DNA of 6,515 bases from Marinagarivorans sp. UBA5868 (GTDB lineage Bacteria; Pseudomonadota; Gammaproteobacteria; Pseudomonadales; Cellvibrionaceae). The notes beneath the pieces were generated by a model. That model did no database searches, was not told the origin of the DNA, and was given only the letters and a program-made list of their open reading frames with translations. Position numbers and translations under genes: made by a program. Positions 1,209 through 6,515 of this stretch are shown piece by piece. The stretch lies in contig DJFQ01000018.1 in assembly GCA_002432095.1 (NCBI GenBank), positions 23,470 to 29,984 on the forward strand. Reading direction: 5' to 3'. Numbering within the stretch: position 1 is the first letter of the stretch; every line of letters starts with the position of its first letter.

Positions 1209-2243
1209 ATGACGACACCTGTACGCATCGCACTGCTCGCCCTTCCGGAAAGCACCGCCTCAACCCTTTACGGTATGTATGACCTGTTTAAGAGCGCAGG
1301 ACGTGATTGGGATTTTCTGACTCAGGGCCAAGCGGGCCCGGAATTAATCGATGTCATGATTACCAGTGCGCATCCCGGTCCATTCGCTGCGGCCAACGGC
1401 GTAACCATCACTCCGCACACTCACCTAAAAGATGCGCAAATTCCCGATGTGATCTGCGTACCCGATATTTTTGTCATGCCCGGCGAGTCGCTGGAAAATC
1501 GCTTTGAAGCCGAAAAGCATTACCTGCGTTTGGCCTACGCCCAAGGCTCCACTATCGCCACCGCGTGTTCCGGCGCCCTTTTGCTGGCGGAAACCGGCCT
1601 TCTCGATGGCTGGCACGCGACAACTCACTGGGGCTATTGCGAGTTCATGCGCAAAGCATATCCGCGCATAAATGTCCTTGCGCAGAGATCACTGGTGGTA
1701 TCTGGAGAGTGTCAACGTCTGGTGATGGCTGGCGGCGGCACTACCTGGCTGGACCTGACGCTGCTGTTGATTGCTCGTTTTTGTGGCGTGGAACATGCCA
1801 TGGGCGTTGCGCGAGTCAATTTAATTGATTGGCACGCCATCGGCCAACAACCGTTTGCCCACTTGGCACCTGCGCCGAAGTCCGATGACGCGGTGATCGC
1901 GGATTGCCAGATCTGGATCGCCAGCCATTATGCAGTGACATCGCCCGTGGCGCAGATGGCGGAGCGCAGTGGGCTGCCGGAGCGCTCCTTCAAGCGGCGC
2001 TTCCATGCGGCCACCGGTATGTCGCCTCTGGAGTATGTTCATACCCTTCGGCTCGAAGAGGCCAAACACATGCTTGAACGGGAAACGTGCTCCATCGAAG
2101 CCATTGCCAATGAAGTGGGATACGAAGATGCGGGATTTTTCAGTCGTCTATTTCGCCGACATGTCGGGCTGACGCCAGCGGCCTATCGCAAACGTTTTGG
2201 CACCCTGCGCAAAACGCTCAGTGAAAAAAGCATGACCGCTTGA
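1209..2243 (+). CDS. GlxA family transcriptional regulator (DJ-1/PfpI-like domain plus AraC HTH)
   Basis: Cytosolic DNA-binding regulator of 344 aa, normal for the family. Residues ~5-195 form a DJ-1/PfpI (class I glutamine amidotransferase-like) domain. Its nucleophile elbow is ATACSGALLLAETGLLDG with Cys120, followed by the family-typical ATTHW (His140). Residues ~232-332 are a double helix-turn-helix AraC domain: the first HTH lies around SPVAQMAERSGLPERSFKRRF, the second around IEAIANEVGYEDAGFFSRLFRRHVG, ending in the signature LTPAAYRKRFG. Characterised relatives include GbdR, CdhR and SouR, which sense betaine, carnitine or sarcosine, so an N-methyl compound as inducer is plausible here. 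That is inference strengthened by the divergent methyltransferase gene. The ATG at 1209 has only a weak purine stretch (GGACAA) upstream. The DJ-1 domain of these regulators usually serves in ligand sensing and is not known to be enzymatic. Confidence 0.92.
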   Translation: MTTPVRIALLALPESTASTLYGMYDLFKSAGRDWDFLTQGQAGPELIDVMITSAHPGPFAAANGVTITPHTHLKDAQIPDVICVPDIFVMPGESLENRFEAEKHYLRLAYAQGSTIATACSGALLLAETGLLDGWHATTHWGYCEFMRKAYPRINVLAQRSLVVSGECQRLVMAGGGTTWLDLTLLLIARFCGVEHAMGVARVNLIDWHAIGQQPFAHLAPAPKSDDAVIADCQIWIASHYAVTSPVAQMAERSGLPERSFKRRFHAATGMSPLEYVHTLRLEEAKHMLERETCSIEAIANEVGYEDAGFFSRLFRRHVGLTPAAYRKRFGTLRKTLSEKSMTA

Positions 2244-3642: not shown

Positions 3643-4227
3643 ATGCCCCAAAAAGCCGCCACTCTTATTTTCGCGACTCTGTCCGTCTTATATCCATGCC
3701 TGGTGTATTTTGGACTGCAACACTGGTCCTATCGTATTTTCGGCTTTTTCATCATCGGCGTCGGTGTGGCGAAATTTTGGTTGTCCCGCTCCGGCGATGG
3801 CCGCAGTGGCTGGGTGGTTTTAGCGGTGACTCTTATCTGCGGCGTGGCGATCTGGGCATTTCCGTCGGAGCTGGCGGTTAAACTCTACCCCGTCGCTATC
3901 AGTGTTCTGGTCGGCTCCCTCTTCGCCCTCAGCCTGCGCCACCGGGAAAGCCTGATTGGAAAAATCGCCCGGCTGCGCGGCGCACAGATGACCCCGGCTG
4001 CCGTCCGCTATACCCGTAACCTCACGGCCATCTGGGCGATACTTTTGTACGCCAATGCACTGGTTGCTCTATACTTGGCGCGCTTTGGCACCACCGAGGC
4101 CTGGACGCTCTACTGCGGCTTGTTGTCCTACCTGATTTTGGGAGGATTTATGGGCGGTGAATTTTTATATCGGCAACACTATATGCGCCGTTTGGGCGAA
4201 CACCCCCACGACGATCAATCCATATGA
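3643..4227 (+). CDS. COG4648-type six-helix membrane protein of an aryl-polyene-like cluster
   Basis: Inner-membrane protein of 194 aa with no catalytic motif that I recognise. Six hydrophobic segments are visible at about residues 5-24, 28-48, 55-73, 80-98, 127-147 and 154-174. A basic loop with RHRESLIGKIARLRG and the YTRNLT motif follows the fourth, and GGEFLYRQHYMRR caps the last. This pattern resembles the uncharacterised COG4648 membrane proteins that recur in aryl polyene and related fatty-acid-like clusters. Their role is unknown; a part in transfer of a lipid-linked product is speculation. It is the first gene of the operon and overlaps the next by ATGA, implying translational coupling. 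The ATG at 3643 has no good Shine-Dalgarno, as its leader is pyrimidine-rich (CTTTTTTACCC), so initiation may be weak. Confidence 0.78.
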   Translation: MPQKAATLIFATLSVLYPCLVYFGLQHWSYRIFGFFIIGVGVAKFWLSRSGDGRSGWVVLAVTLICGVAIWAFPSELAVKLYPVAISVLVGSLFALSLRHRESLIGKIARLRGAQMTPAAVRYTRNLTAIWAILLYANALVALYLARFGTTEAWTLYCGLLSYLILGGFMGGEFLYRQHYMRRLGEHPHDDQSI

Positions 4228-4619
4228 ACCCTATACCCCAGCCCTTAAATACCTTAACCAACATGATGACCGGCGACCAATGGCCGCAGTTGCTCGATCT
4301 GAAGCAGGCAGACGATATGGCAGAGCTGGTGCTGCAAATCCCTGCAGATCTCCATTGGTTGAAAGGGCATTTTCCCTCGCAACCGGTACTTGCTGGTGTG
4401 GTGCAAACAGATTGGGCGTGCCGCATTGCGCTGTGCTTGTTTAATCTCGAACGCGAGCCGAAGCGCATCGATAACCTGAAATTTCAGGACGTCATAATAC
4501 CGCCGCAAACTGTGAAACTAGAGTTGCTGCACGCGACTGCCAGCCAGTCGATTCATTTCCGCTATCGCAATCCAGAACTGCCGGAGCACACATTTTCCGA
4601 AGGCAAACTGGTGTTTTGA
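4224..4619 (+). CDS. ApeI-like hotdog-fold 3-hydroxyacyl-ACP dehydratase
   Basis: Predicted cytosolic dehydratase of 131 aa that removes water from a 3-hydroxyacyl-ACP during chain extension. The hotdog active-site block HWLKGHFPSQPVLAGVVQTDWA (residues 44-65, shown here by its ends GHFP and TDWA) places His49 and Asp63 14 residues apart. This is the spacing of the His/Glu pair in FabZ and the His/Asp pair in FabA; the acidic residue is Asp here. A second family block is LKFQDVIIPPQ (about 85-95), the usual F-x-x-P-hydrophobic strand of FabZ-like proteins. Size and the Asp variant fit ApeI dehydratases of aryl polyene clusters. Its ATG lies in the ATGA overlap with the membrane-protein gene and has no Shine-Dalgarno, so it is probably coupled. 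A Met-Met pair at residues 14-15 is a possible alternative start. Confidence 0.85.
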   Translation: MNPIPQPLNTLTNMMTGDQWPQLLDLKQADDMAELVLQIPADLHWLKGHFPSQPVLAGVVQTDWACRIALCLFNLEREPKRIDNLKFQDVIIPPQTVKLELLHATASQSIHFRYRNPELPEHTFSEGKLVF

Positions 4620-5359
4620 GAGTTCTGCCTGTGCAGTTTTGTTTATTGATCCCCCACTACAACCACCACCAGCAATTGATCCGTTTTTTGCCGGTTGTCG
4701 CCGCGCAAAACTTACCCTGTCTAATCGTCGACGACGGCAGTCGCCCACAAAGCTTGGCCGAGCTTCGCGACGCGTTGACACAATTCCCGGCGATGACATT
4801 ACTCGCCATGCCGCACAATCGCGGTAAAGGTCGAGCCATCAAAACGGGCATGGCGTGGGCGGCCTATCAGGGTTTTACCCACGTTATCCAAATAGACGCC
4901 GACGGCCAGCATCATGTCGAGGACATTCCGCGTTTTATGGCGCTTGCACAAACTCAGCCGGACGCATTGATTTCCGGCCGTCCCACCTTCGACCAAAGCG
5001 CACCGGCGGTGCGCCGGCACGGCCGCAAAATCACCAGCGGAGTTTGTATGCTGGAGACGTTGTCGACGGCAATCCGCGATGGCCTGTGCGGTTTCCGGGT
5101 TTATCCCGTGAGCAATTTTGAAAAAGTCCAAGATTGTTACTACCTCGGCAATCGCATGGATTTCGATACGGAAATTCTGGTGAAAAGCGTTTGGCTGGGA
5201 ATTCCGCTTAAATATTTGGACACGCCGGTGATTTATCCGGAAGGCAACATTTCTCATTTCAATTACCTGCGCGACAACCTTATTCTGATTAAGCTGCACA
5301 CTCGCCTATTATTGGCTGCGCCATTTAATTTTTGGCGGCGCTGGCTGCAGCGGGGCTGA
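4616..5359 (+). CDS. Family 2 glycosyltransferase, DPM1/WcaA-like, of an aryl-polyene-like cluster
   Basis: GT-A fold glycosyltransferase of about 247 aa, predicted to act at the cytosolic face of the inner membrane. The N-terminal strand FCLLIPHYNH (8-17) is followed by VDDGS (38-42), NRGKGRAIKTG (68-78) and the metal-binding DADGQH (94-99). GLCGFRVYP (157-164) and NRMDFDTEIL (179-188) form the acceptor side. There is no extended transmembrane segment. The product resembles the glycosyltransferase half of APE glycosyltransferase/acyltransferase proteins. The start is uncertain: TTG at 4616 overlaps the previous stop by TTGA, with GAAGG 12 nt upstream; GTG at 4631 has GAGAG 8 nt upstream. Neither changes the catalytic core. 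The stop codon TGA at 5357 is followed in the same frame by two codons and the ATG of the acyltransferase gene. Confidence 0.92.
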   Translation: MRVLPVQFCLLIPHYNHHQQLIRFLPVVAAQNLPCLIVDDGSRPQSLAELRDALTQFPAMTLLAMPHNRGKGRAIKTGMAWAAYQGFTHVIQIDADGQHHVEDIPRFMALAQTQPDALISGRPTFDQSAPAVRRHGRKITSGVCMLETLSTAIRDGLCGFRVYPVSNFEKVQDCYYLGNRMDFDTEILVKSVWLGIPLKYLDTPVIYPEGNISHFNYLRDNLILIKLHTRLLLAAPFNFWRRWLQRG

Positions 5360-5365
5360 CCGACC

Positions 5366-6295
5366 ATGAGCAAAACCAGCAGACATTGGTCAACGGTTTC
5401 GGAGTCCGGCAGTTATCGCGGTATTTTGGTGATGCTCTGGCTGCACCGCCGTTTTGGGCGGCGTTTTTTCAGCGTCATTCTGGGGCCTGTGTGCCTGTAT
5501 TTTTTTCTCGTCAACGGCACAGCACGGCGCGCGTCGCTGGATTTTCTTACTCGTCACGCCACGCGCTATCCAGACTATTGGCGACGCCCGCCCAGCAATC
5601 GCGATGTGCTGCGTCACATTTACAGTTTCGGTCAGGCGATTCTGGACAAGATGCTCGCCTGGTCAGAATCCATCGACCCGAATTGTTTCCTTATTCAAAA
5701 CCAACCCGTCCTCGACGAATTCCGCAGTCGCACCGGCGGCCAGCTCATCATAGGTTCACACTTGGGCAACCTGGAATTTTGCCGGGGTTTTATGCAGCGT
5801 TATATGGATCAAACCATTAACGTGTTGGTGTACGACCAGCATTCGGCGAACTTCGTCGAAGCCATGCAGAAGATTAATCCCACTTCGCGTGTCAATGTTT
5901 ATCAGGTGACACAACTGGATATTCCCACCATTCTGCTGCTGCAAAATAAAATTCAATCCGGCGAATGGTTATTTATTGCGGGGGACCGGGTGCCGGTGAC
6001 CGGCGATCGCACCCTCGACGTGGAATTTTTCGGCGAAAAAGCGCCCTTTGCCATAGGGCCCTATATTTTGGCAAAGACATTACAGTGCCAAGTGACGCTG
6101 ATGTTCTCCTATCGAGTACCAAACGGCGTCATTTTTGAAGTCGTGCCATTTGCTGACAAAGTGGAATTGCCCCGGGGCGATACCCAAGCGTTGCACGCGT
6201 ACGTGCAGCGTTATGCCACGGAGCTGGAACGCCAGGCCGCCAAAGCACCTCTGCAATGGTTTAATTTTTATCCCTACTGGACACGCCAGTCATGA
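5366..6295 (+). CDS. LpxL/HtrB-like lipid acyltransferase
   Basis: Membrane-associated acyltransferase of 309 aa, the usual size for the LpxL/HtrB/LpxM superfamily, which transfers acyl chains from ACP to a lipid acceptor. The catalytic H-X4-E box is SHLGNLE with His132 and Glu137. GDRVP (206-210) and FFGEKAPFAIGPYILA (221-236) are the typical downstream blocks, and FNFYPYW (299-305) closes the domain. A hydrophobic stretch at about 34-50 is the probable N-terminal membrane anchor. In this operon the likely substrate is the aryl polyene chain or a lipid head group that anchors it, rather than lipid A. It starts 6 nt after the glycosyltransferase stop, in the same reading frame, and overlaps the next gene by ATGA. 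The ribosome binding site is poor, so translation is probably coupled. Confidence 0.92.
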   Translation: MSKTSRHWSTVSESGSYRGILVMLWLHRRFGRRFFSVILGPVCLYFFLVNGTARRASLDFLTRHATRYPDYWRRPPSNRDVLRHIYSFGQAILDKMLAWSESIDPNCFLIQNQPVLDEFRSRTGGQLIIGSHLGNLEFCRGFMQRYMDQTINVLVYDQHSANFVEAMQKINPTSRVNVYQVTQLDIPTILLLQNKIQSGEWLFIAGDRVPVTGDRTLDVEFFGEKAPFAIGPYILAKTLQCQVTLMFSYRVPNGVIFEVVPFADKVELPRGDTQALHAYVQRYATELERQAAKAPLQWFNFYPYWTRQS

Positions 6296-6515
6296 AAGAT
6301 CCACAGCTTTACGACCTGATTCCCCACCGCGAACCCATGCTGCTGATTGATCGTGTGGTTCATGTTGCAGCGGATTCCGCGGCGGCAGAGGTGGAGATCA
6401 GCCGTGACGCGTCATTTTTTCACGAGGGAATGGGAGTGCCTGCGTGGATCGGCCTGGAATATATGGGGCAGACCGCCGCGCTGATCGCCGGTTATCAATT
6501 ACAGCAGGGGCTCAC
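6292..6515 (+). CDS. ApeP-like (COG4706) hotdog 3-hydroxyacyl-ACP dehydratase, partial at the right edge
   Basis: Only the first 74 codons are present; the frame is open to the last base. The visible part starts with the pattern IPHREPMLLIDRVV (10-23), the N-terminal signature of FabZ/FabA-type and COG4706 dehydratases. Later comes FFHEGMGVPAWIGLEYMGQTAAL (from residue 42; candidate catalytic His44 and Glu56), where VPAW-LE-M-QT matches the ApeP group of predicted 3-hydroxyacyl-ACP dehydratases from aryl polyene clusters. This would be the second dehydratase of the operon. The start ATG at 6292 lies in an ATGA overlap with the acyltransferase stop and lacks a Shine-Dalgarno, suggesting translational coupling. 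The C-terminal half, typically another 70-80 residues in this family, lies outside the window. Confidence 0.85.
   Translation, partial: MKDPQLYDLIPHREPMLLIDRVVHVAADSAAAEVEISRDASFFHEGMGVPAWIGLEYMGQTAALIAGYQLQQGL

Follow-up and report, generated by a model that had tools for sequence, protein, structure and literature searches.

The reference for aryl polyene (APE) biosynthesis is the ape cluster of E. coli CFT073. In the passages of PMC8253772 describing it, ApeR initiates the chain, ApeO together with ApeC elongates it, ApeQ reduces it, ApeI and ApeP dehydrate it, ApeK releases the product, ApeD and ApeJ attach it, and ApeL, ApeM and ApeN transport it. The E. coli genes are on one strand, with the gene of the ligase ApeH between those of ApeG, the COG4648 protein of the cluster, and ApeI, with a fused ApeJ, and with both ApeB and ApeN; there is no chorismatase. 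Here we consider a stretch of 6,515 nucleotides from Marinagarivorans sp. UBA5868 (below, the window), that is, positions 23470–29984 of a 37,435-base contig (DJFQ01000018.1) in an assembly of 263 contigs that is 87.6% complete. Five of its genes very probably form the ApeG–ApeI–ApeJ(N)–ApeJ(C)–ApeP block of an aryl polyene cluster with a chorismatase, and likely aid synthesis and anchoring of a yellow outer-membrane pigment with 3-hydroxybenzoate (3-HBA) as the predicted starter.

Two other described systems are the xanthomonadin (pig/xan) and arcuflavin (arc) clusters. As outlined in parts of PMC3949708, they share with the present architecture an XanB2/ArcB-type chorismatase, an AMP-ligase, a ketosynthase (KS) with an N-terminal-KS protein resembling a chain-length factor (CLF), a ketoreductase (KR), two dehydratases, an acyl carrier protein (ACP), a glycosyltransferase, acyltransferases, LolA and an exporter, and the arc cluster has the halogenase ArcA. 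The arrangement is different: here ApeG-I-Jn-Jc-P-R is one block facing chorismatase-D-F-K-L-M-Q, whereas in arc, according to the same parts, the KS gene arcK and the CLF-like arcJ are neighbours, and a second locus holds the ligase. They also describe a methyltransferase, arcM, whereas none of the ApeB type was detected here with the E. coli query.

The yellow-pigment cluster of Lysobacter enzymogenes, in the portions of PMC3691225 covering it, is likewise a type II polyketide synthase set with a KS and the CLF-like ORF16, and its ORF5 is annotated as a pteridine-dependent dioxygenase, a name also borne by Hyg5. There, the cluster comprises 17 ORFs, and the KS gene ORF17 adjoins ORF16 at one of its ends; the ApeR-type KS considered here, unlike that of L. 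enzymogenes, stands apart from the CLF.

The block in the window and its continuation on the contig

All five genes are where the initial annotation placed them, and their tight coupling is borne out by three 4-base overlaps and one 6-base gap (Table 1). There is no ligase gene between ApeG and ApeI, and ApeP directly follows the acyltransferase, both as annotated. The two hotdog proteins exceed the curated Pfam cut-offs of the ApeI and ApeP families (PF22818 and PF22817), which agrees with the families proposed for them. For the ApeP-like protein the score is 28.7 bits against a cut-off of 27, obtained on the N-terminal half alone; the gene is broken by a 2-N gap beyond the window, and its C-terminal half picks up behind the gap (tblastn in L008, the fetched stretch reaching beyond the window). 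The ApeG-like protein scored under the cut-off of the NCBIfam VC0807 family, and its Pfam profile search gave no match. Since the N-terminal half of E. coli ApeJ is matched by the GT2 protein and the C-terminal half by the LpxL-like one, ApeJ is split into two genes here. The contig copies contain GHFP and TDW (ApeI), HEG and EYM (ApeP), DAD (GT2) and HX4E (acyltransferase), which are the residue patterns expected of active enzymes.

The contig extends about 7.5 kb beyond the window and ends inside a chorismatase gene. It contains the initiating KS (ApeR), the KR (ApeQ), an ApeF-type ACP and, for lipid attachment and transport, ApeD, J, K, L and M; counterparts of E. coli ApeD, F, G, I, J, K, L, M, P, Q and R are thus all present. 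In a comparison with the 18 proteins of the CFT073 ape cluster, an E. coli Ape protein was the clear best match for 12 of the 13 proteins of both blocks, window genes included; the chorismatase had no counterpart in this set. The ApeR-type KS was read in two pieces, with 57% and 60% identity to E. coli ApeR. There are several short N runs in the contig, and the frames are otherwise open.

The KS, KR, ACP and transport genes continuing on the contig support the proposed rearranged aryl polyene cluster, while the alternative offered, a related lipid pathway that is not an aryl polyene one, finds no support. Of the genes expected downstream, the KS, FabG-like KR, ACP, thioesterase, LolA-like protein and MMPL exporter are there; the ligase was not found in this assembly. 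The initial annotation also contrasted the position of ApeP with a usual location far away, beside KS and KR genes. This holds for the ketoreductase, which is situated across the convergent junction, but not for the ApeR-type KS, which is the next gene.

Table 1. Genes of the two converging blocks. Coordinates are those of the window or, where indicated, of L008 (window position = L008 position + 3530)
Feature	Coordinates	Strand	Remarks
ApeG-like (COG4648-type) membrane protein	3643..4227	+	194 aa; blastp to E. coli CFT073 ApeG 32%, E 5e-20
ApeI-like hotdog dehydratase	4224..4619	+	131 aa; PF22818 45.9 bits (cut-off 28.5); ApeI 39%, E 4e-17
GT2 glycosyltransferase	4616..5359	+	247 aa, TTG start; PF00535 61.8 bits (cut-off 23.3); ApeJ residues 8-233, 44%
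LpxL-like acyltransferase	5366..6295	+	309 aa; PF03279 33.7 bits (cut-off 22.3); ApeJ residues 243-549, 35%
ApeP-like hotdog dehydratase	6292..6515, runs past window end	+	N-terminal 74 aa in window; ApeP 38%
ApeR-type ketosynthase	L008 3152-4263	same as ApeP	next gene after ApeP; N run inside
FabG/ApeQ ketoreductase	L008 4384-5139	opposite	converging on ApeR-type KS; 60% to ApeQ
MMPL exporter/ApeM	L008 5109-7559	opposite	
LolA-like/ApeL	L008 7559-8230	opposite	
Thioesterase/ApeK	L008 8227-8703	opposite	
ACP/ApeF	L008 8700-8969	opposite	
Acyltransferase/ApeD	L008 8973-9758	opposite	
FkbO/Hyg5-family chorismatase (XanB2/Hyg5 type)	L008 9783-10436, cut by contig end	opposite	

The complete cluster in genomes of the same genus

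Saccharophagus sp. K07 (G002), assigned to the same genus, has the whole cluster on one contig. Its order is ApeO, an ApeC-type CLF (PF13723) and a halogenase-like flavoprotein; a divergent AMP-ligase with an ApeE-type ACP; chorismatase-D-F-K-L-M-Q, including the thioesterase ApeK; and, converging on the latter, G-I-Jn-Jc-P-R. Counterparts of E. coli ApeC, E, H and O are found in this genome. In the second genome of the genus (G001), the same order was read from two contigs, L081 and G001:C13, overlapping by 891 bases at 99.6%; L081 was taken to be G001:C2, because the ligase and the chorismatase sit at the same places. The AMP-ligase and ApeE-type ACP are divergent from the chorismatase in both genomes, and ApeO adjoins ApeC both in Saccharophagus sp. 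K07 and in the G001 contig. Tag and HD genes border the G001 block, just as they do in the window. The ApeE-type ACP was seen only in relatives.

Three genes of G001, the halogenase-like one and those of the MMPL exporter and LpxL-like protein, are each in at least two pieces or frames (G001:C2:70105-71656; L052:1740-4128, 6698-7620), which may reflect either decay or sequencing error.

Beyond the genus, in G008 (four contigs), some 40 kb separate the G-I-Jn-Jc-P-R block from the chorismatase, ligase and ApeC (G008:C1:5048373-5054028 and 5094464-5098853). Altogether, six genomes were searched; a ligase orthologue is present in the five other than that of the window, and ApeC also in five, G001 and G002 among them.

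Distribution of the gene order

A chorismatase search yielded 477 relatives, from which 80 titled loci were retained. Since these loci were picked by chorismatase similarity, the presence of this gene is by construction, and clusters of the same order without it would be missed. Genes were labelled by the best tblastn hit with E up to 1e-4. As isolated halogenase (hal) labels at a distance from ApeC may represent other flavoproteins, only those adjacent to ApeC were counted.

The LpxL-like acyltransferase is directly followed by ApeP in 29 loci of the 80. The complete G-I-Jn-Jc-P-R block is inside the fetched stretch in 18, the chorismatase-D-F-K-L-M-Q run occurs in 27, and the convergent Q/R junction of the window is seen in 16. 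One could suspect a one-off local rearrangement or, given the short N runs of the contig, an assembly artefact of this genome; with the same block and junction in both same-genus genomes and the junction recurring at this frequency, such an explanation is extremely improbable. Among the 29 loci with the acyltransferase–ApeP linkage, ApeG directly precedes ApeI in all 19 where ApeG is in reach (in the other ten it is out of reach or unlabelled), and the ligase is elsewhere in the cluster in all 29. Hence the absence of the ligase noted initially stands for the position between ApeG and ApeI, but not for the pathway of the relatives, the two same-genus genomes included.

In 11 loci, ten with Alteromonadaceae titles and one from a gammaproteobacterial metagenome-assembled genome, the blocks are in tandem: E, O-C-hal, G to R, H reversed, and chorismatase to Q; one of these loci lacks the R and F labels. 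L084 and L085 show further layouts. Thus whole blocks have moved, while the inner order stayed. The remaining loci comprise 14 of type B, 14 in which only the chorismatase is seen (accompanied by a hal label in one) and 23 that are other or cut. Type B (Cellvibrio mixtus, Marinibactrum, Solimonas) likewise includes a chorismatase and shares most of the gene set, but in this type a divergent C-O-Jc-(I)-H-G-E faces chorismatase-D-F-(I)-Jn-K-L-M-P-Q-R; the ligase is shown in ten of the 14 loci and adjoins ApeG in eight.

Of 14 genomes that were read, five have the block of the window, in six the ligase separates ApeG from ApeI, and two are of type B; G025 has no ligase at that place, the order being otherwise classic. 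In four classic-order relatives (L059, L060, L061, L062 from G013, G016, G007, G004), the ApeI domain is in open frames of 592–614 aa beside a ligase match; this looks like a ligase–ApeI fusion. In two Cocleimonas loci, an extra open reading frame (ORF) of about 290 aa is situated between ApeQ and ApeR (L108:14194-15060, L110:17947-18822); the two are alike by eye.

The halogenase-like flavoprotein adjoins ApeC in all 14 loci of this architecture with ApeC in reach, and the GEST and W-x-W-x-I-P motifs were found in the five such proteins checked. A halogenase-type flavoprotein beside ApeC makes a halogenated aryl ring possible. Bromination is known for xanthomonadins. Not all xanthomonadin-type clusters have a halogenase, as stated in a section of PMC3949708.

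Phylogeny of ApeR and ApeQ

The tree was constructed from ApeR and ApeQ (45 rows, 663 columns) of loci containing both genes; L144 and L127 were excluded, and the locus ends cut several ApeR rows. Assignment to this architecture was made by hand for the window, L052 and L105, as was that of L056 to type B. All 30 rows with this architecture, window included, form one clade with the support of 100/100. The 13 type B rows are on one side of a branch, with a weak support of 77/60. The clade covers the Cellvibrionaceae, Alteromonadaceae, Thiotrichaceae (Cocleimonas), Arenicellaceae and Halieaceae, and both architectures are found in the Cellvibrionaceae and in the Halieaceae. As this single, fully supported clade spans several families, the order is an inherited variant of shuffled blocks rather than a one-off rearrangement. 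The spread of the clade suggests transfer between families or old parallel copies.

No earlier description of this gene order was found in the open-access literature, subscription papers being outside the coverage. Predicted arylpolyene genes are mentioned for shipworm symbionts of the same family in passages of PMC7329324 and PMC6235255 that do not give the gene order.

Starter unit and the proposed pathway

The chorismatase, a partial protein, matches TIGR04444 at about 196 bits over its C-terminal 217 aa. Its SGTAS, DICR and VEIE motifs supply a Gly, a Cys and a Glu, respectively. An alignment with solved structures was made with the Saccharophagus sp. K07 homologue, 71% identical to the chorismatase of our contig; Hyg5 (5ag3) has SGTAS, DVCR and VEIE at these places, and FkbO (4bps) has SATA and DIAR. 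Passages of PMC7170507 include a Gly and a Cys in the marks that set apart the Hyg5 subfamily, whose members form 3-HBA, and describe the Glu as catalytic. We equate Gly-231, Cys-318 and Glu of that paper with the SGTAS, DICR and VEIE places, which would map two of the three subfamily marks, the third being Gly-164. On the basis of these Hyg5-like residues, 3-HBA is the predicted starter, perhaps along with 4-hydroxybenzoate (4-HBA), as reported for XanB2 and ArcB in a part of PMC3949708, which also warns that the reaction of a chorismatase is not decided by sequence alone. The different starter unit supposed in the initial annotation is therefore supported as a prediction, chorismatase-derived 3-HBA versus 4-HBA in E. 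coli.

If the cluster works as in E. coli, an aryl starter would be elongated to a conjugated polyene that is then bound to the outer membrane. In this scheme, the chorismatase would make 3-HBA and the AMP-ligase would load it on an ACP; ApeR would start the chain and ApeO/ApeC would extend it with malonyl units. Reduction by ApeQ and dehydration by ApeI and ApeP, with no later enoyl reduction, would yield the conjugated polyene, and the flavoprotein may halogenate the ring. ApeK would then release the chain, ApeD and the split ApeJ pair would attach the polyene to a lipid, and ApeM and ApeL would move the product to the outer membrane.

The chorismatase–ligase starter logic is that of arcuflavin (PMC3949708, in part), and the LolA protein matches flexirubin LolA2, far under the cut-off (36.6 vs 125 bits). 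Hence one could imagine a dialkylresorcinol–aryl polyene hybrid of the arcuflavin or flexirubin kind, a pathway type characterized by DarA and DarB, with the polyene acid esterified to a resorcinol. This requires an extra assumption, while xanthomonadin-like pigments without a resorcinol part exist, and we consider a hybrid unlikely.

Missing genes and family scores

Several observations weigh against the assignment to a chorismatase-started aryl polyene cluster. In the window's own assembly, we found neither a ligase orthologue (the best E-value was 7e-5, to other ligases) nor ApeC, the halogenase-like flavoprotein gene or the ApeO-type KS. The incomplete chorismatase, at about 195 bits, is under the curated TIGR04444 cut-off of 325; complete relatives of the family are also under it (186–239 bits), save three at 333–337. 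Finally, E. coli ApeN and ApeB used as queries gave no match in any of the 29 loci, the cluster ends being often out of reach; the same search labels ApeN in nine and ApeB in one of 95 loci. Methylation, attachment or transport may therefore differ from those in E. coli. We do not count ApeN and ApeB as defining for chorismatase-started clusters.

Ten AMP-binding matches in the genome were considered as the missing ligase and rejected, as none is an orthologue.

If the ligase, ApeO, ApeC and the second ACP were truly lost, the cluster would be a decayed or partial one, and the remaining genes would serve a different membrane-lipid pathway. The failure to find the ligase, ApeO, ApeC and the flavoprotein in this assembly is what such a loss predicts. 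However, the contig stops inside the chorismatase, where the missing arm would begin, the genome is incomplete, and both same-genus genomes carry the arm. Moreover, the remaining genes have the expected motifs, and their frames are open apart from the N gaps. Decay is thus very unlikely, and we read the missing arm as an assembly gap: in this lineage the ligase belongs to a block of its own, which here would lie beyond the contig break, and it therefore seems to be absent.

Other genes near the block and in the genome

An AraC-type regulator with a DJ-1/PfpI domain is encoded upstream of the block (window positions 1209-2243). Its link to the pigment is unlikely, since a comparison with the fetched relatives at E 1e-15 revealed no counterpart next to their clusters. 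A second AraC-type regulator, 29% identical to the first, is found at L007:12406-13203, next to a 665-aa protein with a ketosynthase-type match (L007:10256-12253, G000:C141), presumably a FabY-like initiating enzyme of fatty-acid synthesis.

Chorismatase and ubiquinone

UbiC (PF04345) was identified in 110 of 144 genomes of the family and in none of the three genomes of the window's genus (G000–G002). A UbiC search at E up to 10 in 12 genomes yielded only five stretches, all under 13 bits, and nothing UbiC-like was seen in the ORFs round two of them. As the genus has UbiA and no detectable UbiC, the cluster chorismatase is a candidate source of 4-HBA for ubiquinone.

At E < 1e-50, chorismatases are present in 29 of the 144 genomes (five weaker rows, G005, G015, G108, G120 and G124, were dropped): in 14 of 34 genomes without UbiC and in 15 of 110 with it (Fisher p 0.001, kinship not corrected). 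The other 20 UbiC-less genomes have no chorismatase at this threshold either, so another source of 4-HBA must exist there. Five of these were examined (G009, G012, G038, G039, G043); UbiA is present in each, and no UbiC-like ORF was seen by eye in its short flanks. For this reason, replacement of UbiC by the chorismatase was rejected. A stronger version for the genus, in which the chorismatase would be the sole source of 4-HBA for ubiquinone, making the pigment locus essential, and the four blocks would constitute a halogenated-xanthomonadin factory, rearranged and exchanged among bacterial families, is unlikely.

Implications

The monophyletic, block-built architecture in five families hints at the genes that need to remain linked, and it shows why one should not rely on a fixed gene order when locating the ligase. 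Pigments headed by 3-HBA and possibly halogenated are predicted, for example, in Saccharophagus sp. K07 and several Alteromonas species.

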